A stretch of DNA of 64,000 nt from Membranipora membranacea (Eukaryota; Bryozoa; Gymnolaemata; Cheilostomatida; Membraniporidae), in NCBI GenBank assembly GCA_914767715.1, contig OU612066.1:28804283-28868282 (forward strand), written 5' to 3'. Under the pieces are notes generated by a model, which searched no databases, was not told where the DNA came from, and saw only the letters and a list, made by a program, of their open reading frames with translations. The position numbers were made by a program, and so were the translations under genes. Shown in pieces: positions 26,901 to 61,079 of the stretch (positions within the stretch are counted from its first letter, which is position 1; the number at the start of each line of letters is the position of its first letter).

Positions 26901-29900
26901 ACTAGATCACAAACAATGCTCCCAAGTTCACAGAGTTCAATTTTCCAAGCTTTTCAGCATGTTCAGCTTACACAGATATATTATATTATATGGATGAGGG
27001 TAACATATCTTACCCAGAACAAGCAAATGACTATCCATGTATGATTGCTGAACCACATTTCTGATCATTGGTTGGTCCACAAGCTCAGAATCGTATTATA
27101 GCTGATCCTAAATTTTGTCAAGCAGTTGTCTGAGTTTTTGAAAGTTGTTGCATGGGACGTCAAGCAATGCATAACGTAAAAGGTGCCAGATTATTAGCTT
27201 TATCCAGTTACTGACACAAAGTTATATACTGATGGGATATGCATTTTACCACTGATCCATAAAATCATATCAATGCTGTCATGCAAGTGGTGCCACAGGA
27301 GCCACAGGTTTGAGTCTCACCGGAGGAGCTTTTGAGATTGATTGCTCCAACCCCCCCCCCCCCGACACCCTCGGTGTACATACTTCCTAAGAATCATGTA
27401 TATACTTCCTAAGAATTTATACTTTTTATCATTATGATTTTGAAAATGATATTTGTTGACTAATGGCCAGCTTGGCTTGGCTTTTGCTACGTCTAGGTCC
27501 TAGGATAATTAAAATGTGTACAGAAATTTGGTAGAGGGAAGTAACTGATCATTCTTTTCTCTATTATGCCATAAACTCAGTGTCCCACAATGCTCAGTAC
27601 CAGGACGGACGTATTTTGAATATTCAGACATGATCTTGTTATGTCATCACTCATCACGAATCATCTTCGTTTTTGTAGTGGATTTAAATTTATGAAATTG
27701 AAACACGAAATTTAAGATTTAAATCGATCAGTTTAGGAATGAGCCATAGAGCTTCTCCCAAGATAACAGTACTGGTGTCAGATAAGACAGTATCATCACT
27801 TTGTGAAAGTAGGAATTTAAACTACTTATTCTATTTTATGAGCTGATTAAAATTTATGAACAAGAAATAATTATTATATCTGGATCAAAACGCCATGATC
27901 ACCATTATTTGTCCTTTTCATCCACCCTTTAATTCTGGACACATGTTCTGCTGACCTGCTGAATATTATTTCAATCAGACATGTTGCATGTACAGCCAGT
28001 GATACATGATCACACACATTGTGGTTTTCAATCACATTCAAGATTGTAATTTCTGAGCCTTTAAAAATGGTCCAGCCCCAACCCTTTCAAATGAGTGTAA
28101 TGTGCACTACACCTGGTCTAATACTGTCTATTCCTTTCCAATCTATTTTTTTTTATTATCATAGTCTGCGCCATTACTGGATATGAATATAGAATTAATC
28201 ATATTTATTATTACTTATTATTTATTAGTCTTCGGGCATCTTGTTTTTCAAGGTTATGAGGGGTAACCATTTCGGTAGTCTAAGTGCTCAGACTCCAAGG
28301 CGCAGGGAGTTACTTGCGCAAGCTATCAAACTCCTCTCCCCTTTTCCGAGAAGGGGAGAGGAGTTTGATAGCTTGCGCAAGTAACTCCCTGCGCCTTGGA
28401 ATCTGAGCACTTAGACTACCATTTCGGTAATTACTGGGATTATTAGATGCTATTTGTCACCTTACATTTTCAGGGACAGTCATTATGAAACTAAGAGTTC
28501 CATAGGACATTTATTTGCCCAATAATCTGATGGTAGCCTATTCCTAGTCCTATCTTTCACTTTCATTACAAAATGGATGGAGAGGGTTTGACTGTTTTCT
28601 TTGGTAGGTTTTCATGCTGATTGCAATGGTAAAATTGCACCTTGCATAATAGTGCACAATAATAGGCCAGAAGCATCCTGGCAATAAGTGCTCCAAAATA
28701 TGATGGCACGGACGATTAATGCTGACAAGAAAACAAACAGGTGTTTCTAGTGTAGAAAATCATTTTGAATCCAAAAATGAGGGTGCACCCAGTTGTAGAG
28801 GTCATCTTCAACAGCAACATTCCGCAATTTTTCACGAAATCGCATTAAATAAGTGATATGTTAAGAGTTTTGAAAAAAGGTGTTCATAGAGTAAAACAAC
28901 GTGCTGAATTCAATAACAAGGGTACACCCAGTTGGAGCAATCATGTCAGCGGCAGCGTCACAGCATATCCCAATTCTCTCAAAATCGCTTTCAATAGGTC
29001 TAAGTGAAATGTTAGGAGTTTAAAAAAAGGTATTTCTAGGGTAAACAACGTGCTGAATCCAAAAAAAGAGCGTACCCAGTTGAGGCGATCACGTCAGCAG
29101 CAGCATATCAAAATCAGTTTGACAATAGTGAGTTTAATATGGTCAGCAGAGAACACGGCTAAATGTATGCTCATAACACAATATTTTATCACATCATTCC
29201 AAAAGGTGATCAGCGACAGCACTACTGTATATCCCCACAAAGAGAAGAAGCAGCCTAGTCGTAAGACTGCTCAAAATGTGATCATGTGAGAAAAATTTGA
29301 TGCAGGAAAAAAAAAGGTCTCTCTAGAATGTGGATTCCAAATATGAAGTTATAACCTAGTTGAATAGGTCAGCGACAACACTACTGCATATCCCAAATTT
29401 TCACGCTATCGATTATAATGAGTGAAAAGTCAAGAGTCTGATGCAGTTGGCAGAAGTCAAGTCAGGTGGACAAGACTATGGACCTAATACATGTTATATC
29501 ATTGCATGAGGTGGTTGGTCAGCGACAGCCCTACTGCATTTATCTCAATATGATGTCATTAGCATTTTAGGAAACATATCAAAACATATCCAACATATCA
29601 AAGTTGAAAAAATGTGCTTTTATCATTCAGTTAGCATTGCAAAGCCAGATTCAAATCTATTGTCAGTGACAGAACATCTGTATTATGTTCTTATACAAAT
29701 GACACAAAATTCTCAGTTAGTCAGTATTTACAAGTGATTGATTTCAGACAGTTGAGTTCCTTGTTAAACAGTTAGGCAGTCTTTGAACTATTAACTCATG
29801 TGTTATGCAAAAGATTTCCAGCCAAAAAATGACATAAGTGTCATTTGAAACATCAAAAATGTATTTCGAAATTGCACCAAGACAGTGGTTTTAGACCATA

Positions 29901-31924
29901 CAATATCATAATAGCCTCCTAAGAAGTTTGATGTTATTCAATTGAAATTTTTAATTTGTGCTGATTTAACGCGAGCAGACTTCGGCAAGTTTACGTGGTA
30001 AAAAAATTGGCATGTCAACACAATGCAATTTTAACCCGGAATTCCCTGAAGATCAGTATGTTTTGCATACGAGTTATTTCATTATCATACTGTTCATTGG
30101 TTAGATTTAGCCTTCTAATTTTTAAATATGACCACTACAATTGGGTTCACCTGATGAGTTCTACAGAACATACACCAATGAAGTTTAAAATGTGATCAGT
30201 ATACTGCAATCAAATAGTATCCGTACCACAACAACATACGCTATAGCTGCTTCTGACATAATTTACAACAAAGCTGCCGGCAACAGGGGAAGAAATCAAA
30301 ACATGATGATATGGTGTAAAACATCAAAAAATCTGAAATAGCATGTCATAATTGGTGGATGTATATAGAGCAAGAGCCAAAAATCGTTGCAATACAATAT
30401 CACCTGTATATAAGCACCGTTTTAGCGAAACTACTTCTTTCAATTTTGCTGCCGCCTGGAAAGCTTGCTTCGTGCGTTCATATAGATCTGAATCTTTATG
30501 GTGACTTTGCATTGTGACCCTCACATCGCATAATATAACACCAGTTTTCAATGCTGCGAGCATGTTGTTTCTCAAATGGTACTTAATTTAAATTTCCATT
30601 ACAGTTTCATAAAAAACAGATATATATATATATATATAAATATCATCAAAAAAAGTACATGGTGCTCAAAAAATATTTTTTGTCGTAAATTGAGTCAATA
30701 CAAAGACACCATAAAAAATCAGATCTTTACTAACATCCGAAGACAGTTTTCCAGGCGGCAGCAAAATTGAAAAAATAGTTTTTGTTTAATGATGATAAGA
30801 TACAGGAGATATAAGGGGTATTGCAACTGTTTTCGGCTATTTTTGATAGCAAGCCCATGAAAACTAGTAGATCCACCAATTTTGACATGATCTCTCTTTC
30901 ATGTTCTGAAACCATATCATCACTATTTGTCAGCAGCATTTTTTGGCAATTAGCTGTCTATTGTGCAACAATCGTTTCAAGGTACGAAATTACCATTGTG
31001 ATCAGCATGATAAACTCTACCAAAAACAACTTCTGTCACACTCTATCCACCCAATTTCGTAAATGAAACTGGATTTTAGCCACATTCTGCATATGCTGCC
31101 ACCGGACCAGTAGGCGGTTGCTGAAACTAAAGTCAGAAGCAAAACCCAACCCTTCAATGCCGCAAACCACTCGTAAATGTGGTAAAATGATAATCATATG
31201 GAAGTGATGCAATGAACTCCCTCTCCGGGAGTTCATTGACTGGAGTTCCTGGTGACACAGAGATGGCTCATGGATGTCCCAAAACCAACTGGAGCCAACT
31301 TAAACAGTATATATATGCTCTTTATAATGACGATTATGCTGCTGTGCAGATGCAAATACATCTTAGGCCTAAGAGTTCAGAGTCAATTCATCCGGGCCAT
31401 TATAATGATGTCACATGATACCCAATAAAATAATGATCCTACACTACCTAGTCTGGGATGATTTGACTGGATGCAGGGATCCCTGCTGGATGTAATCTGT
31501 AAATGTATATGTCATCTATCTGGCAGCATTATCATTATTCAGTCCTTTTTGTATGATGATGACTTATATGCCTGACAGGAGAGCCCAATATTATCAAATA
31601 AATGGTAATACTTACTGCCTTCCTCCTGTGGTCAGGGTCCATCTTCGACTCTTGGTTATTGGTCTCTCCATGCTGATGAGGCAATTCAGGAGCAGCATGG
31701 CTCTGACTCTGAGCTTTAAAGTAATCTTCATAGGACTTTAGTCTATGAGTGTGAAAGTGGTGGTCTGTGCTCTGTTGAACTACTCTTGTGCGTGGTGGGG
31801 TGCTTGGACCTCCAGAATATTTTACACCGACATAGAGTTGGATGAAAAATATAACTACACAACTGTAAATGAAATATTTGTAGTCCAACTGTTTGCAAAT
31901 TCTCATGAACATGGAAGCTGCCAT
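17945..31924 (-). CDS. Peptide O-xylosyltransferase with WSC domain
   Basis: Thirteen exons join in phase to 925 aa: 31924-31616, 26476-26299, 25805-25680, 24562-24395, 23588-23410, 23075-22873, 22339-22259, 21452-21236, 20936-20754, 20275-20170, 19874-19747, 19205-18981, 18619-17945. It is a Golgi type II enzyme with a short cytosolic tail and one membrane segment at about residues 17-34. Residues about 163-260 are a cysteine-rich WSC domain (GEHVGCF..., ECWCGDSY), found in fly but not human enzymes. The GT14 catalytic domain follows ([36 protein letters not shown]). Then come the cysteine knot [14 protein letters not shown] and the C-terminal domain ending near [13 protein letters not shown]. 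It adds xylose to serines of proteoglycan cores, starting glycosaminoglycan chains. Intron 1 is 5.1 kb; the others are short. Confidence 0.95.
22425..22565. mobile_element. Small MITE-like element in a xylosyltransferase intron
   Basis: About 141 bp with imperfect terminal inverted repeats of about 40 bp ('tgcactgtag...gcttgagttct' and its complement at the right end). Between them is a direct duplication of 'ctgaaaagtcaccccaccc'. It has no coding capacity, and the target-site duplication is not clear. Confidence 0.7.
23667..23734. repeat. AT-rich imperfect hairpin with 8-bp flanking direct repeats
   Basis: A palindromic run built from 'ctatagtctatag'-type words lies between two copies of 'ggttttat' (23667-23674 and 23727-23734). 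The hairpin is imperfect, so it is a weaker example of the class described at 48375-48420. Confidence 0.5.
24580..24638. repeat. Minisatellite of an 11-bp unit
   Basis: About five copies of 'atacatattaa' in a row, just outside the 5' end of xylosyltransferase exon 4. Confidence 0.9.
24762..25244. mobile_element. Long inverted-repeat (foldback-type) element, about 480 bp
   Basis: Left arm 24762-24926 and right arm 25083-25244 are inverted copies. Matching landmarks include 'ttaaagtgtttaggaaa', 'atagcaatg', 'attgaatgatataac' (left copy 'gttgaatgatataac') and 'cccctgttac'. The 156-bp centre has no open frame. It sits in xylosyltransferase intron 3. No transposase is present, so if mobile it is non-autonomous. 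Confidence 0.8.
28266..28429. mobile_element. 141-bp near-perfect palindrome with 12-bp target-site duplication
   Basis: Direct repeats 'accatttcggta' (28266-28277 and 28418-28429) bracket a palindrome. Its arms are about 67 bp with one mismatch ('agactcc' against 'agattcc') and a loop of about 7 bp. The clean flanking duplication points to insertion, not local inversion. There is no coding capacity. Confidence 0.85.
28735..29570. repeat. Degenerate tandem satellite, unit about 130-160 bp
   Basis: Four to five diverged units recur. Landmarks repeated in order are 'gtaaa(a)caacgtgctgaat', 'acccagttg', 'gtcagc(g/a)gcagc', 'agcatatccca', 'atcg...aataagtg' and 'aagagtttgaaaaaaggt'. Later units (from about 29290) are more decayed. 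It lies inside xylosyltransferase intron 1 and is non-coding. Confidence 0.7.
30438..30772. repeat. 25-bp perfect inverted repeat pair
   Basis: 'caattttgctgccgcctgg' and flanking bases (30438-30462) recur in inverted orientation at 30748-30772, with further weaker matching outward. The 285-bp interior has no recognised function; it may be the ends of a decayed element. Confidence 0.65.
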
Positions 31925-32789
31925 ATTATGGGTTTTCCTACCCTCACCTATCAGAAAAGGTTTATAGAATTGTCACACTCCACACAAATATATATATATA
32001 TATATATATATAGGACAGACTATGACAGCGAGTAAAGTTACTTGACATTAAAGTTTGAAAAGTGACCTATGATTGGACAGCTCAATGAACTCATTGGACA
32101 GCTTATCACATGTTTCAAGTTTCATTTCTTGAGCTGTAACCTGATGATGAAATAGCAGAACAAAAACAATTCTCCCAGGACAAAACTCCCTTGCTACTAC
32201 CCATACACCAAATGCGTTGTGAACACCTGCAGAGAAGACACTAGTCTCATGTTTGGGACCTCACTGGTCTGATGACAGACGAACCTGAGGTAAGAAATTT
32301 AAATGTAATAGTTGTTTTTTGTTGATAAATAATAATAAAATAAAAATGAATAACTTAGTTTTCAACTAACAAAAACAAACCATTTGAATTATGTTAATCA
32401 AAATAATGAAATAGGCCTATAGCTTTAATAATTACCAATACATTTTTTAACATCTAGATAGGCTCTAGGTTCCATGGAATATTTGTTTCATAGTCATACA
32501 TCATCATCATCTTAGTTAGTTTCAGAGTGTGAGTGTGTTTTTGTTGGGTTTGGATTGGAACTGGATGAATGGGAATAATTCTCTTAATTTTTATCGAATG
32601 CCATTCTAGTGGAACAGGTCAACATGATTGATAGCCAAGCATCCAGAAAATCTTCATTCTCGATCATTCTGCAAAATAAAAGTGGAAAAAGACTGTTTGT
32701 GTTATCATCAAAGTGTTTGACCAGCAGGAAGTACACGGCAAATCAAAAGCTTATGCAACCCATGGTCAGATTATGAATTAACAAACTGC
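31925..32789. other. Intergenic DNA, 5' flank of the xylosyltransferase gene
   Basis: Contains an (AT)n tract (about 31989-32012) and no gene. It is the left part of a 2.1-kb head-to-head interval shared with the CCCH/RING gene, so both promoters should lie here or just after the LINE fragment. Confidence 0.5.
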
Positions 32790-33861: not shown

Positions 33862-34064
33862 CATTGCTGTTCAATTGGTTGATCAATTGTTAATGACCCG
33901 GAAATGTTAAACCGATTTTGAGCAGAAGTTTCTAAAGTCACAGCTGGAGAGCTGGCGCTTGAGACGAAGAAGACGCAGGTAAATACGCAGGTAAGTAGAT
34001 GATGCGGTGCCACCAACAAGCAGGCAAATGAATTATAGCAATTGTTTACATATTTGTAGCAAAC

Positions 34065-40000: not shown

Positions 40001-43000
40001 ACTATGGTGCTGTAATGGACAGCAACAGTGATGCAATGAACTCATTGAGTGATGTGAGTGTCCATATAGACCGCTCTTTGACACGGCTGCTCTGGCTGCT
40101 TCTTATCAGCAGATACTAGAGCTTAAATCTTCTAACTTTTGAAGCCATGATTAATCATAGTCTGCATTGATTAGCCAACTAAAAATGGGCTTCATTAACC
40201 AGTGCTGGTATAAGCTTGCAAACAGGGCAGGAGCAGTTTACACTTACACTCGTTTTGCACAAAAATGAAATAGAGGGGTGTACACAGAGTGAAATGTACT
40301 ACTTCCAACAAATCTCAAATCAAAATGGGTCCTCCTAATATTATTTACTGTCTTAATTCTTAACGAATGCCAGCTTACCTCTGCATGGATATTTTGACTC
40401 TATTCCCTTTGCATAGAAATCTCTTCTGTACTGTGTCTGTTTGACAATTTCCATCTTCAAAAAGTTGCGAAACAAGGACCTGAATGAAATATATCCTTGC
40501 TGTGGCTTGACCTCGAACAACAAGTTTTACTGCTATGTGGCTCTGTTGTGCAGTTTTTTCCCTCATCAGTTATCTTTTGGCCATTGATTTTATTGCATAC
40601 ATGTAATTAAGTGTTTTTTCCTGATTTACTCCCATGGTAACAATGGTGAGCATGTGGTCTTATCAGTGTGAAGCAAAAGTGAATTTACTCAGTTTTGTAA
40701 GTCACACAGCTCATGTGGTCAGGGCCTGCATATCAAAGCTAGTCTTTATATATCAGATAGAACATTTGCTCAAGGTGGAGGCTGCTTTCCTGTGCACAAA
40801 CTTTTTGCAAACCTACTGGATCTCACTCTTGACATCCTTAAAGCATCAGAAACATAAGTTGGACTGTTCGCCTTGTCTCAACGCCCATAAGACTATCTTA
40901 TAGGTGCTCAGATAACGTATTGTGGCAAGGTAATGACCACAGTGCCTCCACCAAAAAGATGTTGTGGCTGGTCACCTATTGCCATCGCATCCATACCACA
41001 GCAAGGAATCACTTTGATTATTAAAGCTTCTTTCGTTTGCTGTGAACTGTTAACTCTATCACTTTTAGTCAAACGCTGCAGCTACTGTAGAAGTTCATGT
41101 ACCAGTGGGTAGGAAGTGGTTGATGTGTAAAGGTTATGAGCTGGGGCTGTGTAAGAGACCAAGTAACGAATGTAGCTATGCTCATCATAAGAATGAACTA
41201 GACCCGGTATGTTAAACATCTATAATCTAACAACCTCTTCATGTGCATCACTCATAAAAGCGATCACAAATCATTCTTAGCTTGTAAATTAAAGAGAAAC
41301 GTGAAGCTGTGATACACTTATCATCTTATACACTTAAGAATTTTGTTGATCCTGGCACAACTTGGCCAGGGTTCCCAGGCCTCTCTACAGAAATTACTTA
41401 TATTAGGAGTATCTTCTTTGGAGGTACTTTTTCATGTGAGCTAATACGCAAAATTCTAGCTGCTGACACTTCTTCATGGTCAATTCAGGAGCTGAACCAT
41501 GTAGAGCCTTGTGAGAAGCAGCTATGTATGGGTAGGTTGAGGTACGAGAGACGAAGGACTACCCTGTGTCCAGAAATGCTGAAGAAGGGCTCGTGTATAT
41601 TTGGGAGAGATTGTACTTATGCTCACAAACAGAAGGAAATCAGACCCCTACCTAAACATGAGATGTGTAAACGGCACATGAATGGAGGACACTGCGGTGC
41701 CGCTGACAAGGTTTGTTAACACCATCATTATCCTATAATTTAGCAAAGCGGTTCCTACTTAATCAAACGTAAAAGGACAAAAGAATTTTGTTCAGACTTT
41801 GCATCGCTAATCAAAAGGGACGAAATGTAATGCAATGTATGAAAGTCACTTAGAGATTATTTGTAAAAAATTCCTGATAAGATGGGATATATCATCAGGC
41901 TACTAAAAAGGAGAAAATAATGCTGGTGATATAGGGATAAACCACAAACACAAATGCATATATTTCGTTTCTACTCTTTCATTTTTTACAGTTACATTTA
42001 TATTTGATAGCCAGGATTATTTACCTGTTTATTCCGTACTGTTTTAGTGTGTGTACGCTCATAATAGGAATGAACTAAAGCCCAGGCCTGCTGGTGAGAA
42101 GGAAATCATTCTGGCTCCTGGATCGAGTAGTAAGAGTAAAACTGCTGTCGCTGCTGTGGCAGCAAAATCAGCTTCAGCTACACCTAAAGTGACCTTGCCT
42201 AAACAATACAAATGTCGCCCTGAGGTAAGAACTAACTACTCATGAGAAGAACTCAGCTTTCTAGCAAGTCCTTTTTGACCATCATATGGACGGAACCTTT
42301 GCTGAAGTGCCATCAACCCACCTGCCAGCAACCTAGTATTAGCAAATGCCAGTATGTTATTTAGCTGAGATTAGCTGATATTGGATAGTACACAAACCCA
42401 ACTTACATGTTTACCAATCTTTGTCTAAATTCAAAATTCATCTGCTATATATTCTTATAATTCTTATAAGCCTGCATAATTTACTTCTTTAGGACCCTAA
42501 CCACTCGCAGCCATGTCGTCGACAGTTCTGTCCTGGAAGACTTAGTTATGAGACCAAGTTCACTGCTATGTGTACTAGTATGAGAAATGGCAAGTGTACC
42601 ACAGGTGCTCTTTGTAACAAAGCCCACGAAAAGTCTGAGCTGAGACCGCTACCCAAATATGAGATGTGTAGTAAATACGGAGGGTGCGGACGCTGTGTGC
42701 CAGATAATGAGGTAAGTTCATAATAATTTGGTATGCTTGCCTTTGAAGAGTTGGTACTGTGACCCAGAACTCAAAGGGTTCTGTAAATTTGAGCGTGCAT
42801 GTAAATTGAAAAAAACCTGGAACCTAGAAAGAAAAAATCCTGTCTTTTGAATTATATGTAACCACCGAGCTTCTATGTGTGTTAGCATTCACAGTAAAAT
42901 GAGTGTCACATCACATCAGAGCTGGTGACCAAGAAAGCAGCTGGGTTGTTACTACAAAAATATGGCACTAATACGTAGTAGAGTTATAATCGTAGAAATT

Positions 43001-45836: not shown

Positions 45837-48195
45837 TCATAACTGGGTTTCGAATTCATGTTTTCGGAAGTTGAACATAGTTTTAGGAATCCTCTGAGCA
45901 CCAATTGAGGATTTGTCCCTCTCGTGTTGTCGGCTGCTATTTTTCCTTTCATTATGTGTGACTTTTGACTTTTGCCAATCAACTGGAAGCTCATCTTCAT
46001 ATAAAGTTAATGTATTCACAGCTGATTCAGAGGAATACAAACTTCTATAGTATTTATTTAAATCCACCCAACGAGGTCTCAAATCATGCTGACTAGCACT
46101 TTTAGATACAACGTCATCATCTGACACAGCCATAGTATAAGTATTCCTATCATTGGATGAGCTGCTGGATGTTTTATGATAATGCGGCGGAGTTATAAAC
46201 AGGAGACGTCTTCTAGGATTCAGTTTTCCACCACAGTAAGGAGTTATCTTTCCAGTTAGGGTGGAATACTCATCCACATCACTGTGTGAGCTCTCCGAGT
46301 CGCTGTTTGTGGGTGTGGACAATGATTGTGTGGGTTTGGTGTTTGAGTAGTTCTGTTGCTGTGCTCTGAGTCCGGTTGGTGAGAGTAGGAAAGCTGAGGG
46401 TATAACCGTGTTGGGTAAATCCGGCCTGCTCGCTAATTGCTGATGTATAGGTGAACGAGTTAAAGTTGGTGAGATCTGAGGTGTCATAGACTTTGATATC
46501 GCTGCTATCTGCTGCCTGTTGATTTCAACTTTTATCTATAAGAAAATGATGTATAAACTCATAATTGTTATTGCGGTGGTTTTAACCAAGGATTTCTTGA
46601 AATCCTTGTTTTAACCTCATAATAACCATTAATATTCAAGGATCGCAAAAATCAGGGTTCAATTCAAAGTAAGGTTTTGAGGGCCTGTATAATCTCAAAT
46701 GACCATGAACTTATTTGCGTCTCGCATCAGCATCACATGCTGGGGATAAGTCACGTTTAATAAACCATTCCTGTTGATCACACCAGGGAGTTTGGAACAC
46801 ATGTCAGATATGACATATGTCCCAAACTCCCTGATCACGCATAGTAAATGGTCTAATTTGGAGAATTGCCTACCCTTATACCTGATACAACCACATCTAA
46901 CCGAAACTTTGCCACTTGAGCTCTTAGAAAGTTTGTTTGAGAAAGCTCACCTGTCTATGATTTGATATCTCTGGAGATCTTGTTGGTGGGATCATGTTTG
47001 GAGTTGTGTATACAGGGCTTGTAGGATTGGTACCTGGTGTGCTTAGAGATGTCATATCCTTGCTGCTAATACCTAGAGGGTTATTGATTATATCTACATG
47101 CTTTTGTCTTTCTTTAAATTCGAACCCCTTGTTTGTCACACAAGTTTTCTTCTTACGTTTGACATCATACGAGTCCCATACGAATGGTGCTCTATCTATG
47201 TCATCTCTTCTGGAACCGGGACAACAGCACTTTAGAGCTTTCTGCAAGGCCTGTTTCTTATTTTCATAGTTGCTCAGGGTTAAACTTGTAAGTGCAAGAA
47301 GGAGACCGAGAGCGAAACTAGCAAAGACTGCTACCAGCCATAGTGTGTTGTAGTGATTGCTGTCAGCGCTTATAGAACTGTACCACATGGCAACCATAGC
47401 AATGTTTTCACTTAGTGTTAGCGTATAGTAACCCACTAGCCATTCTATTGGTACTTTGTAATCCGAGATTGTGAGATCTATAGTATTGGCTAAAGCCAAC
47501 AGCAACAGCCAAACTCTAAACGGTGTACAGTCGTTCTGATCGGATAACTCTCGCAGCTGGTACCAGATCATGATAACTAGAAAATGTATACCGATTATTA
47601 GCACAACCCACATGCTGTAAGGACTGGACAGTGCGCATACCAAGGCTGAAAACCTTGAGAATAACATGAAGACCCTCCATAAGAGTATGCACATCCATGT
47701 GGCACAACCCGGCTTCTCCTTTGTGGTAAAATTACTGAAATGTGTCAATGTTATAACTATAGATAAGTAGCTCAGGGAGATCATAACGAGAAAGCTTTGT
47801 TGATTAGTATCCAGGATGTAGATGTTGCTTAGATAGATAAGTATTGGTGCGCTGAATGTACAATGCTGTAAAAGTTTGAGTTTCATGAAATCGTTATTGT
47901 CTGAAGACTCATAGAGCGAGAGTAGTTTGAAATAACGCCAGAGCGGCCCAAGCTGAATAATATGAGCCAACACGCAAGCTAATAATCCACACGGCTTCTT
48001 GTAAAAGTCCATTGTATGACATATGCGTATTCCAGATGCTAGGTTGATGAGAAAAGAGCTTCCGGCCAAGAACCCTACAGATATCTGCCATTGTTCAGAT
48101 AGATATTCGAAGCTGTCTATAAGAAGATACACCAAAAATCCAATCTCCAAAAAGAAGATGAGTATTTGAGCTGTTGCTGTCAATCGACCCATCAC
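45837..48195 (-). CDS. XK-related membrane protein (XKR4/6/7 type)
   Basis: Two exons (48195-46951 and 46535-45837) give 647 aa, close to the length of vertebrate XKR4 and XKR6. Residues about 1-320 are strongly hydrophobic with several membrane helices. Family landmarks are HIIQLGPLWRYFKLL near residue 90 and YYTLTLSENIAMVAMWY in the later part. The C-terminal half is a long polar, Ser/Pro/Asp-rich cytosolic tail. Relatives XKR4, XKR8 and XKR9 are phospholipid scramblases activated by caspase cleavage in the tail. The tail has Asp-rich spots (DVDEYS, ELPVDW), but no cleavage site can be asserted. Either of the first two Met codons could start translation. Confidence 0.92.
46580..46615. mobile_element. 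22-bp palindrome between 7-bp direct repeats
   Basis: Direct repeats 'ttttaac' (46580-46586, 46609-46615) flank a palindrome with 10-bp arms 'caaggatttc' and a 2-base centre. It lies in the single XK-related intron. Confidence 0.75.
46775..46838. mobile_element. 50-bp hairpin between 7-bp direct repeats
   Basis: Direct repeats 'tgatcac' (46775-46781, 46832-46838) flank a hairpin with 23-bp arms starting 'cagggagtttgg', two mismatches and a 4-base loop. Same intron as the palindrome at 46580. Confidence 0.75.
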
Positions 48196-49923
48196 GCGAT
48201 TATTGTTCAGTGCGCAGCTGATTTAACTATATCTTGGTAATCGGCGTGCTAAAAATGTCGGGTACTTGTCACAAGTGATGTCACTAACAGTAAATATTCC
48301 ATTGATGTTGTCAGACAGTATCAACTCTGAAATGTAACAGAGGAGATAATTACTACGTGCATGTCAGTCGATCATTGAGTAGACCAAGGAGTTAAAGACA
48401 CTTTAACTCCTTGAGTAGACAGCCATTATTAAACTCTTGAAAGGTGACAACACAAAACTATACCATGGTAATAAGATAGCAGGTAGCCTCTTCACATACT
48501 GCTAAGATTTAAGGCTTGATAGCTAAAGTTCTAATCGAAAGAATTTGTGATAATCCTTGCCAGCTCCTAAAGATTTAAAACAGCAAAATGGTGAATTTGC
48601 ATCTATTAAATTGTAACTAAGTAAAACATTTGAATTGTTACCACAAACCTTTTGGAAATAAGAACAGTGTAGATCAGCGCAGCAAAGACGAAGAAGCACT
48701 CTACTGACTCTATAAGAAGTCTTAGAATTTGTGAATATGAGATCGAAGCGCACATGCATGATGTCAGCAGAAAATCTCACATAATCACATGAAATATATT
48801 ACCTGTATTATCACAAGGCTGCTCTGTTAGATAACAATTAGACGTTGTCATCACATAATATAAACAGGCTTCACTTGTGTGGAGCGGAAAACACATGTTC
48901 TATTGCAGCGTTGTAAATGTAATATGCAAAACGTCTTGACCATAAATATTTTTGACATCAGTCAGCCCGGCCAATAATGATGGCATGTAACCAAAAGTTC
49001 CCCAGCTAATTAATATCGAAGTGAAATTACACAAACCTTAATTTCTAAGCAGATCCATCAACATTTCACATTTTGACACCTGCCCCATTAGCACAACACG
49101 ACTCTACAATAGGCAATCACAGCTTTCACAGCTTCATGAACTACTTAGTTTTATACATCATACTTCTGATGTGTAAAAAATGCCGACCCTCAAGCTAAGT
49201 TATTGATTTTCATTAACATCTTCTTTTGACTTTTGTTTTCTAAATAAAAGCAATTAGGGACTAGCTGTGAAATTATTTTATACCTAACTTCCTTAAGATA
49301 TGAAAGACGCTTTTGTTAAAACAAAGAAATTGTTGTCGTAATGAAAAATTCAGAATTGTCAATTGTACATCATAATCATGTTAGCTATTCAAGGAAATTA
49401 ATGAAAAAGGCAACTATATCAATAAATATTTTTGACTGCATTAACTCCGGCCGGGGGGCCGGGAGGCAAGATTCTGGGGGCTCAGACCAGAATTAACGAG
49501 GAGTCTTTAATTATGTGGATCAAACCTACAGATCTCTCAAGATTCTACAGCCAATGCTGGCTGGATCTGCCGATGTTTCCCCAGTTTTAGGGCGGTCTTT
49601 GACGCTTTGATCATATAATGCAGCTTTAAATATTTCTTAACCTACTTATAATGCCATTACGATGCAGCTTGAGGCCCTAACTATTATAACTCTAGTTGTA
49701 GTGATGGTTAGATACTTTGCCCATTTTCACGCAGATATGTGCTAGAAAGGTTCTTCTTTATGTATAATATTGCATTTGTATTGTTTGACTATCACATTTT
49801 TTTGTGCTGATCAGATCACTCACTTTACCCCAGCATCTATGTTGTAAATCAATTTATTGTTATTTTTCAATCCTTGGTTATCCTCACTCTGCTTTCTCGC
49901 AGTTCGTTTTTTGTCCCAACAGA
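48196..49923. other. Intergenic DNA upstream of the XK-related gene
   Basis: No gene is recognised apart from a micro-palindrome at 48375. A GC-rich inverted motif (ccggccggggggccgg) lies near 49448-49463. It should hold the XK-related promoter and, at the right end, a possible 5' UTR acceptor ('tgctttctcgcag') for the small gene that follows. Confidence 0.45.
48375..48420. mobile_element. 26-bp palindromic insertion with 10-bp target-site duplication
   Basis: Perfect direct repeats 'ttgagtagac' (48375-48384 and 48411-48420) bracket a hairpin with 13-bp arms ('caaggagttaaag') and a 3-base loop. The last three bases of the right arm overlap the duplication. It is the cleanest short member of this class. 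Confidence 0.8.
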
Positions 49924-50868: not shown

Positions 50869-50905
50869 GTAAAGTAATGAATGTAGGTCTATAAGACGAA
50901 CGTGT

Positions 50906-53900
50906 TTAGCTGGTTCTCTTTGCTGGTGGAGCCTGAAGAGTGAATGCCCCCGGTGCACTGGCTCCCAGACTTTGTTGTTGAGGTACTGCTAATCCTACAA
51001 AAACATAAACCATACGAATCTGGAATGTCATAGTTTGCTTACATACCGTACCCAGGACAACTCCAGCAACAAACAGTGTGTGTTTAGTACTGTTTAGTTC
51101 GACCAATTTTAAACATGCCCTGGATAGTGCACAGATCATTTTCACACAAGTGTCAAATAGTGATATGAAATCGCAGCGTGTTTCGGTTTTAAGAAAAGTT
51201 CTGATTGAGTAAATTGATCAGATACAAGTGAACAATGATCAAAGAAAAATCGGGATTGGGTCAAGCAAACCAAAACTACTATCATAGTCGGGTGCATCTA
51301 AAATCTCTGCCAACACACCTATAGCTATAGACATAGCCATGATTATGAAACATCACCAATTTGTATGAATTTGATGAAAATTACACCACAGGTTATTGCA
51401 GAGGAGCTTACTTTGCCTTTACAATAAAATCTTTTGCACCATAGTGAACAACTAACAACTACAAATAGTCATTATTGAGAGTGGTATGATGACTCAAAAG
51501 TAGATGGACAAGAAAACTTACTTACCCGAAAAAAAACAGAAATCTTTGAAAATTTTATATCTAATGGGTATATACAACACACCAGTCTAGAAACCAAACA
51601 GCGATTTCACTTGGATTTCAGTTATTAATGATTGTCTCAGCTCAATGCATTAGACACTGTGGTTGGGGTCTTAGTGAAAGTGAATATCAATTTGGCTATG
51701 CTTTACATAGTGACAGGTTTGATCATAGATAGGTGTTACTAAATTGCCTAACGTGCATTTTTGATTGTTCTCACCATTAGGGGGGGTTTGAAACAACAAA
51801 TTAGGTGTTTGCAAAAGAAGGAGCGGGTGATGAATAAAAGAGCAAAGCAGACATTAGTTTGTGAGCTGTGTGATCTTCATTACATAGACTGTGCAGGATA
51901 TTTTGTAAGATAAGAAGTTTTCTGCCCCTGTATTATAAAAACTTCATGCCTCAGATAAGGTTCTACTATGTTTAAGTTGTCTGTCTACACAACACAATGA
52001 CTGTGGCCAATGGATCACCTGGTGTTCTGCTAGTCCAGAAAATTTAAAATTGCCTACTCTTGGATACGCATGACATGGTTGCTGATTGAGGATAAAATCG
52101 AGACTAATTTCACACCAACTGGCAGGGAAGGAATGGACTTCGAGTCAGACTAAAGAGTAGGTAGGTACACTTACAACCCACTGTCCCCAAACTTAGGGAG
52201 ATTTGATGAAGAGTGGCACTAACTCCACAAGTACTGTGTGGTGTGGTGTGGGAGGGGTAGGGGGTGAGATGATCACAGCTATGAAGTGAAGATTACAGTG
52301 CGAGTCACACACACACACACACACAGAAGAAGTGATAATTAGTGACTAGTACGTACCACACACAACCAGACCGTACTTAATTACCTAGTGGCTTTGTAGC
52401 TCCAAACGCTGATGTCGTTGATCCAAATAGGCTAGCTGCAGTAGAAACAATACACTGTCATAAACTCATATATATTAATATACATTCATGTGATGATTCC
52501 TGGTTGTGGGTCAATAATGAGAGAAAATACAAAACCACTCAAGTTGAAGGAGAGGCTCCACTACCAATCTGATATGATAGCAAAGAACTACGAACAAATA
52601 ACAAATGTTAATTTGGCAATGCATAAGCAGTCCTTTCAGTTCAGACAAGGAGACAAACTCAAACTCCTTGGTTCAGAGAAACAAAGTCTACAAATAAAAC
52701 AAAAGAGTGAGCCTCAGGACGTACTTGGTTTGGCAGCAGCTGTAGATGAGGGGAATCCAAATGCTGTACCAGTAGTGCCTGCAGTGGATGTGGTAGCTCC
52801 GAACAGACCTATCAATGGCAATAATCAAAAATTATATTTTAGATAAACCTTCTTCACAATTAGATAAGGTACTGACATTCAATGACGAAATATATCAGGC
52901 CAGAGTATTTTTAAGTCAAATATCCACTGTCAGTAGATTTGTGGTTACCCTAGTCTGTTGAAACACCAATGAACGACATTCTTAATAGACTGGATGTGAT
53001 TGCATAGGGAGCAAAACGTGTTTATTAGTTTGACTTACTAGAAGGTTTTGCAGCAGCCGCCCCGCCAAACAGACTAGTCTGCCCTGTAGCTGCAGGCGTA
53101 GCACCAAACCCGAATCCTGTAGCTGGTTTGGCTGCAGCGGCTCCAAATAATCCCCCTGTAGTCTGTGTGGTTGTCGCTCCGAATGGGTTGGGTTTAGCTG
53201 CTGTAGCACCAAACAGTCCCCCTGAAGTACCAGTGGCTGCAGTACCAAATCCAAACCCACCTGTCGCAGGCTTGGCAGCTGTTATAGTAAAAATAAAATA
53301 AACATGACAACTGTCTTTGGGTTAGCTGTAACAAATTTTCCTATTTAAATGTTGGACAATGCCTTACACTTTTTATATGTGCCCACTGTTAGTTTCTGTA
53401 CAATCATACTTAAAACTCCCTGTTATAATATAATATACTTATAATACTTATGTATCCTGGTAAGTAGCTTACCTCCGAACAAACCGCCACCAGTCTGTCC
53501 AAGTCCAAATCCTGTTGCTGCAACAAAAACAAAGTCAAAGAATATATTATGTCACAGATGAGTTTGCAGGCGAAACAATCTGACATAAGCTTTTATTCAA
53601 AAAAATTTGTTACTTCCACCTCACGAAACACGACACACTAATGCAAACTGTTGATAGCACATGGTAGTCAGTAATTTTTTTTTAATTAATTTTCCTATAC
53701 ACTTTATTAGCTGTTCAGTGCTGAAGGCAATGAGAACAATTGAAGTCTGGGAAGGTATTCCGAAAAAGAAGAAGAAGGTCATTGCATTACAATGATGCGC
53801 TGAGATGAGCTGTCCTGCCATTTGAATTGGAGTTGTCTGATAATCTGGCACTATGCCCTTTGATGATCTGATAGCAACAGCGACCAACTGACGGTAAGCT

Positions 53901-56900
53901 TCAAACAAACAGTCAGATAACAAACATACCTGCGACAGGCTGCTGAGCTTGCTGAGGGGCCTGCATAGCCTGAGTCAGCATCATGGCAGCATAGTTAGAC
54001 AGACCAGCGAATGGGCTCGGTCCTACAGGCTGAGACATACGAGGTAACTTAGCCTTCTCTAAGACCTCTCTCCTCCGTCTCTCAAACACATCAGTATCAT
54101 CATTGTGAAAAACTTTACGATATGCTAAATATTGCTCCTTCTGAATCTGTATGGGAGGAATAAAAATTATGATGTCATCAAGGTAGTTAGTAAGATCATC
54201 TCAGGGGCAATCTGATATTTGACCATCTCATTGTTTACTTTTCCAGAACATTACCAGGAAATCTGCCATAATTCTAGAATGGGGCCATAGAAGACCATGT
54301 AAGCTTAGTTGAATGGCACCTCGAACAATAATGTGTTTAGTAAGATTATATTAGGGTTCATGATCATCTTTGAAGATGGTTGCCATTCAGAAAAATTAAT
54401 CTTAAATATAAACCAACCTTGATCTGTTCATGTATCCCTTGGAGCTGTGCAGCTAATGCTATGAATGTTTCATGAAGTCTTTTTAGGCATATGAATAAAT
54501 CTATAACAGAAATTTACAAAATGATTATAAAACATTAGGTTGCCGAAATACTTTGCGGTTGATACTATATCAAATGCAATTAATCGTGGAAAAACGATGC
54601 TTATACGAATTTTGGCAAGTATGCAACAATGATACTACAGGTTCAGTATTAACCAGGGCCGTCAACCAATATAAAAACGTTGTTAACTACATATATCAAA
54701 GACTACTGATGAAATTTAGCATTAATCTCACCTTTAGGTGTGACAGTTGAACCTTGCTGAGCTCCTAGTATATACCCTTCAGTGTCCTCTATTAACCTCC
54801 TGTAGGTAGCCATCCTACTCTCAAATGACTCGAGTAAGTTATAGAAGTACTGATCAGGGGCTGTGTATTCTCGGGCTGAGGCTGCACCAGACTCTATCAT
54901 CAATCTAGTACCTGTTGCCATCTCTATATCATATAATGACTGCAGAAAAAAAAATCATGTCAGTATGTTTGTCAGTGGTTGAAGAAAAGTGATGTTAAGT
55001 GCTGATCATTGCGTAGTGCAGACAATGGCGAACCTATATATCTATAGCATATTTATACATGTATATATATATTTATGCAGGGGGGTGGGGGCTAGTAGAA
55101 TGCCCATCATGACCGTAGGCAGGAGTCATACATATTATTGTGTATGGCTATGATCCTGACTAACTGATTTGACTGTGGTTAAAGTTTCTAAAAAGTTTTA
55201 TTTTGTAACATTCAAGCTGCCCAGTATCCGTGTCATTCGAGCTGGTATGTAAGTGTATTTTGCAATTTAATAGACTCATAGTTCCAGGAAGATTAGTTGA
55301 GCCATAATAGTACTGAAAGTACTTTAGTTTATGCATGCATTCCCCCCTCCCCCTCAGTTGCTGAGCAGTTCTTGACACAGTGATCATACAGTAAATATAC
55401 CTGTTTTGTTTGTGTTTTGAGTTTCTCCAGCGCTGTGACGTTCCGATGTAGACCCATAGCTACAGTACTGAGGAGTTGTCTCATGTTGGTTGTCTGGTCG
55501 CGCACTTTGTCCATTTTATCTTTACTGGATGTCGACTTATTAGCAGATATCTCTTTTTGCTTCTTTATATGTTTTCTAATGAAGAATTCCACAAATACCA
55601 TGAATTGGGAGGGATAGCAAAACTTAGCAAATGTGAGAATTAATTAAACCTCATAACCCTCTCACAAAGTAAAGCAAAACATATGATCTTCAATTCGTTT
55701 CATGATTTGCCACATGACACCTCTTGCAAGATGGTACATGTGGCAGAATACAACAGGTGGTTGGGAATGTACATGTGGCAATAGATGGCAGGTGCTTGGC
55801 ATGTACATGTGACAAGAGACGACAGGTGCTTGTAATAATTCATATCCCATTATACTCACTCAAATTCAGTAAACTGGTTGATAATCTCAGCGGGTACAGG
55901 TTTGGTATCATGGTTCTGGTCACCACTGAAAACATTAGAGAATAAAATGTTTTAGGACAAACGGCATGATCATATTCATAAAAGCCAAAACTAGCGGATT
56001 TCTTCTCAGAGTCACAATGATTATATTCTCAATCATCAGTGCCATTTTCCTCAAACAACTCTGAAGCAATACTGACATTTTCTCCCAGTATACCAAGCTC
56101 AACTTAGATCTGTTTTTATTGTTTAGGTGGAGAAATTCAGAATATTGTCAAATTATCCCACTGTTGCAAAGTGCTTTTTGAATTCTTTTCATCTATATAT
56201 GTATACACTTTGACCTATACAGAATCCAGTGAGCACAAATTTCACGACAGTTGATAAACCTGTAAAATATAGAGTAGGTCACCTTGATGCTGGTTTGTTG
56301 GCGCTCTGTGCTAAGCTGGTGGTCTTGACTTGACCATCTAATCCTTTGTTGAAAGCTGGAGCAGCACTGGTTGTAGCTGCAGGCTGTGTTGTAGCTGCTG
56401 GCTGACTGAACAGTCCTCCACCGCCCAAAGTCAGCGGTGCTGCCGCAGTACTTGCTGGTGCTTTAGCAGGACCTCCTAAAACAACATCTACAAGTTATCA
56501 GATCTACATGGATAGTGTGCAACATGTCTTGAGTACACACACATAACTAATTCAAATGCTTGTCAATCAGAAACTACGCAATTAAAAAAAACCTTAGCAA
56601 CAGCATTTTCATGTACCAACGACCAAGAAAGCTTCCACATGTGACTGCAGACATGGCATTGGCCAAGTGACTGTCGTCAAAGGAGTTCACCATACAACTT
56701 TACAAACCCAATGAGAATGGAGCTGTCGTTAAGCCTGCTGCACTGCTTGTAGCCCCTAGAGTCAGGACGGGTGCGGTACCAGTTGATGCAGCTACCGCAC
56801 TTGCAGCTCCTGTGAAGAGTGAAGAACCTCCAGTCAAAGAAAAGCCAGAAGCTTGAGTGGTGGCTGTCGGTAACTTCAAGGCTCCTAGTCCACCTGTGGC

Positions 56901-58478
56901 AGCAGTAGAGGCAGCAGGAGGTGGGTTAGAGAAACCGCCTAGTTTGAGCCCTGTGGTAGGTGCGACACTGGCAGTGCTGGTACCTCCTACCATTCCTAGA
57001 ATATCACACACAAAAATAACCTGAGTACACAAGAGGACTATAGTTAAGTGGAGGTCTATCATATGTCCATAGCTGGAGTACAAACTATACCTAGCGCACA
57101 TGCAAAAGTAGCCTTCTTTGACAAGCTTTGTTGAGTGTGGGGGGGGGGGGACAAAGCATGTCAAGACAGGCTAATACAAAAGGTGACTTAATGCTCAAAG
57201 AGTACTTATAAATGAACACTGAGTTCATTTGCAACCCCAAGAATCTTTGTTGTATAAGAGTATATTCACACTGACATCTTTTACTTCCACCAGTCAGTTG
57301 AGATTAGCGCCGACATTGCATCAGAAACAGTAGAAGCCTAGTTCCTGCATACTAGATCTATTGCATATTTCAAAATATCATAATAAATTGAGATGTAAAC
57401 CTACCACTTAGTATAGGATTAGCAGCTGCGGCAGGCTGGGCAGTACTTGCAGCAGCCATACCAAATCCGAATGAAGGAGGGGCAGTAGTGGGTACTGCGG
57501 TGGATACAGAACCGCCTCCTAAGCCGAAGCCTCCGAATGCTGGAGGGGCTGTAGTAGGTACAGATGTTGCGGGTGCTCCGCCTCCCAGACCGAACCCAAA
57601 CGCAGGAGGAGCTGTGGTTGGTACACTGACTGGTGCTGCTGCTGTGGCACCAAAGGAAAAGCCTGACAGCAGAGAACAATCAATGTTATCATATAATCCC
57701 TCACAAAAAAGTGTACACACCTGCTATTAGCATTGCTTCACCAAACTGCCTTCAGCGTTCAATACTTAACGGAGAAAATATAAAGTCAAAGGCTAAGAGC
57801 TAAAGGGTGCTGAGCAACATGCAACACAGATCCTGAAATGCTGTGTGTGGGAAAAATAGTGCCTATCTGCTATTAATTGTAAGCCATATCACCAAAATCC
57901 GACCCCGGTGTCCCAGATTTATCAAAAATTACCACTAAATCAGCTGCACTATAAGCGATAATTAATGAATGAATGATGTAATGAAAACTGACCTGCACCA
58001 GCGCCTGCCGGAGCGGGATTGTTTGTGGCGCTACTAAGAGCCGATAGGTTACTAAACAGCCCACCACCAGCTAAAACAGAGATTCCAATGTGATATGCTA
58101 TGTTCAGAATAAGCGTGATCAATATACAAATTACAACTATACCAGCTACAAGTAAGGACCACAATTAACCTTGTCACCACTGCTAAGTTAAAACATGCAG
58201 TGCCAAATTTGTCATTTTAATGTTTTGATACCGACATCGGTCAATGTGATGTAAAATTTAAATGCTCAAAGCACCTCAAACACAAAAGCTATTATATCAT
58301 CAATATATACGCATTACATGCACAATGTGAACAAACAACACAATAACAACATGCTAGCGGTAGAAATGACACATTACCACCGGACTGATGTCTTATAGCC
58401 ACACACCACACATCATAAGCTAAACATAGGGGTCATATACATAATTAATTTACCTGTTTGAGTGCTGCCAAGGGCCAT
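50906..58478 (-). CDS. NUP58: Nucleoporin p58/p45
   Basis: Fifteen exons join in phase to 699 aa: 58478-58454, 58070-57993, 57662-57405, 56995-56708, 56475-56283, 55925-55860, 55575-55401, 54939-54732, 54500-54418, 54146-53930, 53517-53473, 53278-53039, 52808-52725, 52435-52385, 50994-50906. It is a component of the central NUP62 channel complex of the nuclear pore. Residues 1 to about 280 are Gly/Ala/Thr/Pro-rich with FG motifs. The central helical part matches human NUP58 through TAPDQYFYNLLESFE, VTPKD, FIALAAQLQGIHEQI and KEQYLAYRKVF. The C-terminus is again FG-rich and ends APPAKRTS, like the human Lys/Arg tail. It is longer than human (599) because of expanded FG regions. The start chosen is the only Met in exon 1; that exon is open upstream, so an earlier start remains possible. 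Confidence 0.93.
52306..52325. repeat. (CA)n microsatellite
   Basis: Ten CA units in the last NUP58 intron. Confidence 0.95.
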
Positions 58479-58608
58479 TGTAGCTTTGGTTAATGTTGCT
58501 GCTTGATGGGTTACACTTTGACTAGGATTATAGATCTGAAAAGAAAAAATACTAGTGGGTGATTATAATATTAACATTTAAAGTTCATGCAGTACGACTA
58601 TGACACAC

Positions 58609-58675
58609 AAGTCGCCCTAGCCTGTCTTATCAAGCTTGTCTTGTCAAGCTTGACAAGACAGGCTAAAGTCGCCCT
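58609..58675. mobile_element. 47-bp palindromic insertion with 10-bp target-site duplication
   Basis: Perfect direct repeats 'aagtcgccct' (58609-58618 and 58666-58675) bracket a hairpin whose 19-bp arms read 'agcctgtctt(g/a)tcaagctt', with one mismatch. It lies about 130 bp upstream of the NUP58 start codon. Confidence 0.85.
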
Positions 58676-58924
58676 TTCATACCTTTAATAAGGCTTATTA
58701 TGGTGGTCAAGAAAGGATGAAACAACAACAGGTTACAGCACAGGCCCACTCCAAAACCTGGGTCTCTCTGACAATAAAATACTGGGAAGCTAGTCAAAAA
58801 TTGCCAGATGCCCAGGTTTTTTTTAAAGATAGACCTGCCATGTGGGTTAGAGCAAGGAGTAACTTCTATTCCTCGTTGGTAATAGAGAAGAAAGTACAAG
58901 TAGTAAGTACTTGCAACTATATAT

Positions 58925-59507
58925 CATAAGGCCACGTGACTTTGATATAGCCTGTGATTTTTGTCAGTGGGTGGGGGTGGGCGAGAAGAGAAGAATGAGT
59001 ATAGGGGGGAACCATCAATGTAATCTCATGATACTTTTTCGATGTGTTTTTTTTTCAATTTTGTGTGGGTATCTATATATATATCTATGTTGTTGTTTGC
59101 TTTTCTATGGCAATCTATCTATGTTAGTTTTCTTCTGGCAAGGCTTAATTATTAATTATCTATGAGCTGGTGTATGCTGATGTCCTTGTGTTGATTTGAG
59201 CTGCAAGTAGAAGGCCACTTACTTTCCTCTACTAGTCTACTCAAGGATTTAAAACCCTTAGGGGCTTGAAATCCTAGGTCTACTTCTTCAACTTGCCAGA
59301 AGAAAACTAACATAGATAGATGGCCATAGAAAAGCAAACAACAACATAGATATATAATAGATACCCACACAAAATTGAAAAAAACACATCGAAAAAGGAT
59401 CATGAGATTACATTGATGGTTCCCCCCTATCTCTTTCACTCTATCTCCCACCCCTACCCACTGACAAAAATCACAGGCTATATCAAAGTCACGTGGCCTT
59501 ATGCTAT
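58925..59507. mobile_element. 583-bp inverted-repeat element
   Basis: Left arm 58925-59142 and right arm 59292-59507 are inverted copies. Shared landmarks are 'ataaggccacgtgactttg', 'gtaatctcatgat', 'gttgttgtttgcttttctat' and 'gttttcttctggcaag'. The centre is about 150 bp. The arms differ by small indels. The right end abuts the LINE fragment at 59505. Confidence 0.85.
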
Positions 59508-60077
59508 ATATACCTAGGTGTGACATTTCAGTCAGACCTGAAATTCAACAGACACATCACAGCCAAAGTGAATACTGCCAACAAAGTCCTAGGAAGTATA
59601 AAGTTTGCTCTCCACAATGCCCCAGAGAAAGCCAAACTGCTGGCTTACACCAGTCTGTGCAGGCCTGTCTTAGAATATGCTGACACTCTCTGGGACCCAG
59701 CTGACAACTCTACAGCAGAAGAAATCGAGCTGACACAAAACAAGGCTATATGTTTTGTCAAAGGCATAAAAGGAAGGCGCGGCATAACGGACGCACGCTC
59801 CCAACTAGAACTCCAGCCCCTCAAAGACAGGAGAAAAAACCACAGACTCTCTTTGCTGATGAGAATCCTCTCTGATGAAGAAAAATATGAGGGCCTATCC
59901 TCAGCGTATGACGAGGTCATCAACAACCAAGCCAACGCCACCATGGTGACAAGAGCTGCTACGCGGGGAGAACCAACAGCAATTTTTGCTTCTTCCAAAC
60001 TGTACCACAACAGTTTTTTGCCCAGGACTGTAAGTGTAAGAGACCTGAGGCTTGGGCCATCCAATACTCAACCCTAA
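59505..60077 (+). mobile_element. C-terminal fragment of a non-LTR reverse transcriptase
   Basis: An open frame of about 190 codons matches the post-catalytic part of LINE polymerases: YLGVTFQSDLKFNRHI, then LCRPVLEYADTLWDP, QLELQPLKDRR and a terminal LPRTVSVRDL, ending in TAA/TGA. The catalytic FADD part is absent. It is unlike the copy at 32790-33861 in detail, so a second LINE lineage is present. It lies exactly between two long inverted repeats. Confidence 0.85.
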
Positions 60078-60378
60078 TGACGGCTATATGCTGTTACCCC
60101 TGCCTAAACCACTGGTTTTTTGCTCACAAATGGTAAATATATGAGGCACTCCCCTTTATGCCCTAGGGCTTTATTAGAGTGTTCTACAATCATCGAGGTA
60201 AGATAATAATAATAGTCTAGCTAGTAAGTTAGAAAAAACTGAATCAAAAATTAATTTAGAATCAGGGACTGGTAGGTGATAGAATTATCATCCTAAATCT
60301 CATTGTTCCGGGTCAAACTCTTGAGATATGGTATGTAATTAACCAGACCTTCACTCCGCAGACAAAAGAGGCTGTTAC

Positions 60379-61038
60379 CATGGGCCCCTGGGACTTACAT
60401 GACTTTACTTTGCCAATGTCCACTATCAACCACCCAAAAAACACCAAACAGGGTAAGACACAAAAAAAATTTTTTACAACCTACCTTGAAATCTCTCACA
60501 CTAACTCACTCCTCCTTCCTCTTTCATTTGCTTCAGGTTTGAAGTTTCTAGCACAAACAGAGCTGACTTTATGGACCAGAGAAAAAATTGCTTCAACAAA
60601 ATTCACAAAATCTGAGTAGGCTGAAATGGCTGCATGAGTATTGACATCCCCACATGATTATTGTTCTTTTTTTTTATTTCACTAAATTGGTTCTTTTTAC
60701 ACTCATATATGATCTCTCATAGTTTATTAGAAGCTTAAAAATTAATGTATATAATTTAGAACTCATATTTGAGTGTAAAAAGAACCAATTTAGTAAAATA
60801 AAAAAAAGTACAATAATCATGTGGGGATGTCAATACACATGCAGCCATTTCAGCCTACTCAGATTGTGCTAGAAACTTCAAACCTGAAGCAAATGAAAGA
60901 GGAAGGAGGAGTGAGTTAGTGTGAGAGATTTCAAGGTAGGTTGTAAAAATTTTTTGTCTTACCCTGTTTGGTGTTTTTGGTTGGTTGATAGTGGATATTG
61001 GCAAAGTAAAGACATGAAAGTCCAAGGGGCCCGTGTCT
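60379..61038. mobile_element. 660-bp inverted-repeat element
   Basis: Left arm about 60379-60709 and right arm about 60764-61038 are inverted copies, sharing 'caaacagggtaagac', 'gaaatctctcacactaactc', 'aggctgaaatggctgcatg' and 'ggttctttttacactca'. The centre is about 55 bp. The right arm ends next to the small palindrome at 61037. Confidence 0.85.
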
Positions 61039-61079
61039 GTAACCAATGAACTAAACCTAGTTTAGTTCATTGCTGTAAC
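61037..61079. mobile_element. 29-bp palindromic insertion with 7-bp target-site duplication
   Basis: Direct repeats 'ctgtaac' (61037-61043, 61073-61079) flank a hairpin with perfect 13-bp arms ('caatgaactaaac') and a 3-base loop. It is about 260 bp upstream of the SRSF1-like start codon. The arm begins 'caatgaact', as does the hairpin at 31210-31238. Confidence 0.8.

Follow-up and report, generated by a model that had tools for sequence, protein, structure and literature searches.

Probable excision scars of P-type transposons among short palindromes in the genome of Membranipora membranacea

The window analysed here is a stretch of 64,000 nucleotides from chromosome 2 of the bryozoan Membranipora membranacea (28804283-28868282), a genome of 339,339,785 bases in 18 contigs. 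An earlier note had described six palindromes in it, each set between perfect direct repeats, and all six were confirmed at their positions. A flanking repeat of at least 7 bp accompanies 6 of the 14 palindromes of the window, and none in every one of 30 first-order Markov simulations. The window gave no Rfam matches at gathering thresholds and no ARAGORN genes. A 423-aa frame on the minus strand (46924-48195), between the palindromes at 46784 and 48385, matches the XK-related protein PF09815. Positions 1-4484 and 9643-14105 form a tandem duplication with a spacing of about 9.6 kb, mostly 95-100% alike where compared, and an exact 223-bp tandem duplication occupies 17513-17958.

The six palindromes had been regarded as unrelated sequences of one structural class. 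That single class is rejected, as there are two lengths of duplication and two types of ends, and we distinguish classes A and B (Table 1). The proposal that the direct repeats are target-site duplications (TSDs) stands. Their lengths are fixed, 7 bp for the small palindromes and 9 bp for those at 28276 and 58618. Among the repeat lengths first quoted, 7 bp holds, whereas 10 and 12 bp had been over-extended, the boundaries constant across copies giving 9 or 7 bp; at 46784 the repeat is a 6/7 match with boundaries other than those first quoted.

Table 1. Palindromes of the window with their flanking duplications; class B entries are putative excision scars.
Feature	Positions in window	Flanking repeats
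Class A MITE, 143-bp palindrome 28276-28418, TAGTCTAAG..CTTAGACTA	28267..28427	9-bp TSDs CCATTTCGG
Class A-like, 48-bp palindrome 58618-58665, TAGCCTGTC..GACAGGCTA	58609..58674	9-bp TSDs AAGTCGCCC
Class B scar, 22-bp core CAAGGATTTC..GAAATCCTTG (starts 46587)	46580..46615	7-bp TSDs TTTTAAC
Class B scar, 50-bp core (starts 46784), stubs CAGGGAGTTTGG	46777..46840	TSDs ATCACAC / ATCACGC, 6/7
Class B scar, 29-bp core CAAGGAGTTAAAGACACTTTAACTCCTTG (starts 48385)	48378..48420	7-bp TSDs AGTAGAC
Class B scar, 29-bp core CAATGAACTAAAC..GTTTAGTTCATTG (starts 61044)	61037..61079	7-bp TSDs CTGTAAC
Additional class B scar, 12-bp core CAGGGATCCCTG (starts 31474)	31467..31492	7-bp TSDs CTGGATG
Additional class B scar, 14-bp core CAATGAACTCATTG (starts 32083)	32076..32103	7-bp TSDs GACAGCT
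Additional class B scar, 14-bp core CAATGAACTCATTG (starts 40034)	40027..40054	7-bp TSDs AGTGATG
Additional class B scar, 25-bp core CAAGGAGACAAACTCAAACTCCTTG (starts 52646)	52639..52677	7-bp TSDs GTTCAGA
Probable decayed class B scar, core CAATGAACTCCC..GGGAGTTCATTG (31210-31238)	31203..31245	flanks match 4/7

The palindrome at 28276 represents a family with at least 82 match rows genome-wide (best 40 of 429 candidates scored), where both strands of the palindromes give matches. In the window and in the stretches L008-L027, which were picked for carrying copies of this family, both ends are present in 18 copies; the 9-bp TSD is perfect in 15 of these, matches at 8/9 in two and is lacking in one (L010). 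Three further copies in the same sequences have no recognisable right end, and no copy there has a perfect TSD of 7, 8 or 10 bp. The copy lengths are 130-156 bp. The family resembles MITEs in being multicopy, about 140 bp long and almost wholly inverted repeat, with conserved sequence, inverted ends and a fixed 9-bp TSD. For 28276, the former view was incomplete or wrong in that this palindrome belongs to an ordinary multicopy family of palindromic MITEs. The family is best explained as inserted palindromic MITEs that are still in place and come from another transposase, one with a 9-bp TSD. The palindrome at 58618 differs in sequence; its ends, TAG..CTA, are those of the 28276 family, and its TSD, which is perfect, has the family's length of 9 bp. 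It is probably likewise an inserted palindromic MITE of a 9-bp-TSD transposase.

The class B cores start with CA and end with TG, between 7-bp TSDs. Far from being unrelated, they have a few common termini (CAAGGA, CAATGAACT, CAGGGAG), and the cores at 31474, 32083, 40034 and 52646 add four members with perfect 7-bp TSDs to the original list. A motif-blind scan (6 exact end bases, core 12-60) was applied to the window together with L008-L027, that is, to 262,020 bases forming a non-random sample. It produced 11 cases in which the repeat is exactly 7 bp, each of them with a CA start, and two CA cases at 8 bp; within the window, it found a perfect 7-bp TSD around seven class B cores. Five second-order simulations, pooled, contained three CA cases at 5 bp, none at 6 bp or more, and two non-CA cases at 7 bp. 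The non-CA rows of the real sequence at 6, 8 and 10 bp lie mostly within copies of the 28276 family. In the scar at 46777..46840, the filler between the stubs is imperfectly palindromic.

Two weaker examples had also been named. In that at 31210 the core is of class B, but the repeat has decayed to 4/7. At 23667-23734, the 8-bp repeat GGTTTTAT is indeed present around CAGAGACC.., but the ends are imperfect and the status of the locus is uncertain; its interior is a degenerate ATAGTCT repeat. Possibly it is a scar of the 8-bp class described below, with templated filler, though this is unproven.

The terminus of the scar at 48378..48420 recurs at 3084 places genome-wide, as given by the pattern CAAGGAGTN{0,30}ACTCCTTG for the CAAGGAGT palindromes (reversed control, 4), and that of the scar at 61037..61079 at 1818 places, given by CAATGAACTN{0,30}AGTTCATTG for the CAATGAACT palindromes (control, 1). 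The class is well above chance, as had been supposed. When the gap is 31-61 rather than 0-30, the CAAGGAGT palindromes number 166 (control, 2). In the 198,020 bases outside the window, the motif-blind scan counted six CA cases with a perfect repeat of 7 or 8 bp, which corresponds to about 10,000 in 339 Mb, an order of magnitude derived from six cases in a non-random sample.

The TSDs were assessed at 40 of the 50 listed CAAGGAGT places, namely the first 41 in order minus C1:2090719. A perfect abutting 7-bp TSD was observed at 26 of them, as against 1 in 1560 for mispaired flanks. The other 14 match at 6/7 (nine), 5/7 (two), 4/7 (two) and 3/7 (one, the compound L047, whose outer end has a perfect TSD). 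A perfect TSD of 5, 6, 8, 9 or 10 bp occurs at none of the 40. Two retained copies of the TSD around a joint, as in a P-element-type footprint, are therefore seen in 26 of the 40 places and in seven cores of the window. Over 39 loci (L047 excluded), the two copies are identical at 254 of 273 positions, so many of the scars are not recent. The motif NTNNNAN fits 20 of the 26 perfect TSDs, compared with a fraction of 0.095 of window positions; the Drosophila P target, GTCCGGAC, is similarly symmetric. Scars may be adjacent, as are three at C2:19593995-19594076, between which CTGTGAC occurs twice, or nested, as at C1:23824943, where a CAATGAA core between copies of GTTACTC lies within a CAAGGAGTAAC scar.

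A sister class has 8-bp TSDs. Scars with ends CATAGAGTTA are found at 192 places genome-wide (control, 0) and include a second terminus, CATAGAGTTATTATATAC, distinct from the one whose source is known. The latter terminus, CATAGAGTTATCCCCCTAGAG, occurs at 31 places, 22 of them forming 11 opposite pairs 2.4-7.3 kb apart. The P element at C2:20174132-20180103 (5972 bp) has a perfect 8-bp TSD, AGGAAAAC; among nine other pairs tested, the 8-bp TSD is perfect in eight and matches at 4/8 in one. The copies L028 and L029 have the right end ..GGGGGATAACTCTATG in common. One frame of L028 contains PF12017, PF21787 and PF21788, and another contains PF21789; no PDB entry matched one L028 frame in a sequence search. 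PF21789 has at least 80 matches in this genome (best 150 of 184 candidates scored) and none in 14 control genomes. P-transposase domains, CA..TG ends and an 8-bp TSD place this class in the P superfamily, and the 5972-bp P element was identified as its source. Moreover, the P-element copy L036 contains GTTATAGC, 21 bp and again GTTATAGC, and its paralogue L037, 94% identical over 1131 aligned bases, has GTTATAGC only once. Thus an empty site with a single copy of the repeat, anticipated in the earlier note, was seen for one scar of the 8-bp sister class. The copy L029 also has a 386-bp insertion (L029:4963-5348) with ends CAGKGGC and the 8-bp TSD CTTGATAG, absent from L028.

The cores of class B are 16-42 bp long in the 40 sampled places and as short as 12 bp in the window. 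Stubs derived from one terminus end at varying points and are often unequal in length. With a stub library inferred from the scars themselves and no null model, 28 of the 40 joints have an overlap of 1-4 bp, one is blunt and 11 contain filler; microhomology or templated filler at the joint is likewise a feature of P-type footprints. Certain long fillers duplicate stub sequence (C1:502288, C1:2509056).

The limit of the stubs was considered for the 17-mer CAAGGAGTTAAAGACAA, found at 81 places genome-wide, 20 of which were examined with four known scars excluded. Three of the 20 (L111, L115, L120) continue with common further sequence and are intact ends of the 7-bp class. Of the remaining 17, 14 continue with C, one with A and two with the element's G, and 10 have an exact second copy of the TSD within the stretch. 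In 3 of the 40 cores the stub matches were longer than 17 nt, at 18, 19 and 20 nt. That of 18 nt is cancelled by the intact end, where position 18 is G, and those of 19 and 20 nt rely on the inferred terminus. In the sister class, eight junctions with the stub CATAGAGTTATCC were read by hand among those listed of the 192 places, and none of the eight extends beyond 17 nt of the intact terminus CATAGAGTTATCCCCCTAGAG. The limit of 17 nt is thus observed for one terminus (CAAGGAGTTAAAGACAA, 20 of 81 places) and for eight hand-read junctions, with two library-dependent exceptions. Most stubs end at or before the cleavage offset of the P-element transposase, whose cut lies 17 bp within the inverted repeat (PMC7776569) and leaves 17-nt tails (PMC7776569, PMC2895639).

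A transposase for the CAAGGAGT class was not found when the 81 CAAGGAGTTAAAGACAA places and at least 80 P-transposase matches were compared by eye. The only vicinity of the two is a cluster on C3, and the P copies that can be placed there end in CATAGAG. The region C3:21754597-22503223, with twelve same-strand CAAGGAGTTAAAGACAA places in 0.75 Mb and several P-transposase matches, is a repeated segment. No intact CAAGGAGT element was found in which both ends are present and the 7-bp TSD is perfect. L126 and L127 have 86 bp in common at the CAAGGAGT end and diverge beyond. Behind this intact end, L126 has a 202-bp inverted repeat (324-524 and 699-900) and a possible right end at about 972, flanked by GTGTAAA, compared with GTGAAAA on the left. 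Among 11 of the 12 places of the longer T2 end, intact ends of the 7-bp class are likewise seen, as judged by eye from the further sequence common to L128, L129, L134, L135 and L136. The 20-mer CAAGGAGTAACAGGGGAGAG occurs at 12 places with no nearby opposite pair; these 12 exact occurrences stand against thousands of scars with shorter termini, a scar count that pools several termini and is not a ratio within one family.

Fixed TSDs, common termini, variable joints and high abundance characterize class B, and for the 8-bp sister class there are in addition a P-transposase source and one empty site. We consider it highly probable that P-type cut-and-paste transposons left the class B micro-palindromes behind as excision scars. 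In this view, insertion of an element that has CA..TG inverted repeats would favour NTNNNAN targets and duplicate 7 bp. On leaving, its transposase would cut one strand about 17 nt inside each inverted repeat, and each flank would keep the TSD and a 3' tail of inverted-repeat sequence. Since the tails carry the same sequence, they could pair only at self-complementary points (TA, TTAA, AC with GT), and if the ends were joined there, with filler in some cases, the product would be TSD, stub, inverted stub and TSD, that is, a near-loopless palindrome with a variable centre. We infer cleavage of the 7-bp class by an enzyme of the P lineage with the same 17-nt offset, and likewise the repair pathway that produced the joints.

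This layout has a precedent in the end-joined excision junctions of Drosophila P{w^a}, which consist of TSD, a stub no longer than 17 nt, inverted stub and TSD, with joints at AT or TA microhomology and templated inserts (PMC2895639). Those were obtained in a laboratory assay and have 8-bp TSDs (PMC2895639), whereas the scars of M. membranacea are fossil, number thousands per genome and have 7-bp TSDs in the main class. As the junction layout is already known, so is the mechanism; new with respect to the searched literature are the 7-bp variant and the natural abundance. Zebrafish Pdre2 / THAP9 also combines CA..TG inverted repeats with a P-type transposase, and its excision was demonstrated, but the TSD is 8 bp (PMC10983969). 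The excisions by zfTHAP9 in S2 cells show larger flanking deletions (PMC10983969), and the tidiness of the scars here, unlike the frequent loss of flanking DNA there, counts against our interpretation, as do the 14 of 40 sampled places without a perfect abutting 7-bp TSD. In the available text of PMC10983969 no natural scar population is described for this system, and, as judged by titles and abstract openings, no report of genome-wide P-type scars was recognised in the literature.

A further objection concerns the 7-bp class, which has no linked transposase and whose TSD is 7 bp, compared with 8 bp in known P elements (PMC7776569, PMC10983969). With none of the 40 places having an 8-bp TSD, the class is likened to P excision and is not classed as a P element. 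The same two facts would be accommodated if these were excision scars of a transposase from outside the P superfamily that also left long terminal stubs. We regard this as rather unlikely, as the architecture, the CA ends and the stub limit are the same as in the 8-bp class with its known P source; superfamilies other than P are not known to leave more than a few end bases. The more specific proposal, in which the 7-bp class records elements excised en masse by a P-like transposase lineage that is as yet undescribed and has a 7-bp stagger, perhaps in at least 10,000 germline events repaired by end joining, has in our opinion an even chance of being correct.

Alternatively, the palindromes could themselves be mobile, minimal elements inserted at a length of 12-50 bp. 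Exact TSDs and inverted ends are what such elements would have, and longer palindromic elements of this genome, those of the 28276 family, did insert as such. It is nevertheless improbable, given cores down to 12-16 bp, the many centres and unequal stubs produced from one terminus, stubs ending near 17 nt where intact ends of the same family continue, and the match between sister-class stubs and the ends of a far longer element; class B scars, in contrast to the 28276 family, are not MITEs. For the same palindromes the earlier note had offered a very small foldback element, an identity that is rejected, the small palindromes looking like remnants after a larger element left. It had also offered snap-back filling of staggered breaks. 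Filling or joining was probably involved, and the fillers that repeat the stub as in templated synthesis (C1:502288, C1:2509056), as well as the partly palindromic filler at 46784, agree with it. However, a transposon-free version, in which random breaks alone gave palindromes between short duplications, is extremely improbable: a few termini recur at thousands of places, the duplication is fixed at 7 bp and there is a target motif, and hence a sequence-specific enzyme is needed. As a whole account, it is refuted already by the shared termini.

If the class B palindromes are excision scars, one wild genome seems to preserve thousands of P-type joints, previously known from Drosophila assays. 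Each scar with both TSDs intact, and there are many, would give the target, two stub lengths and the joint, so that an assembly by itself would suffice to measure germline end joining. Mass excision of the 7-bp class, if true, would mean end joining rather than copy-back of the element, with scars now far outnumbering intact ends, and the outcomes of germline break repair would be archived naturally in the scars, in a form that can be sorted. Why scars so strongly outnumber intact ends is a question raised by these data. Some caution is due in annotation, as such palindromes may be mistaken for tiny MITEs.

A further structure of the window, at 58925-59503, is 579 bp long. Its ends, CATAAGGCCA, are exactly inverted, and its 8-bp repeat, CTATATAT, is of low complexity; possibly, it is a nonautonomous element.
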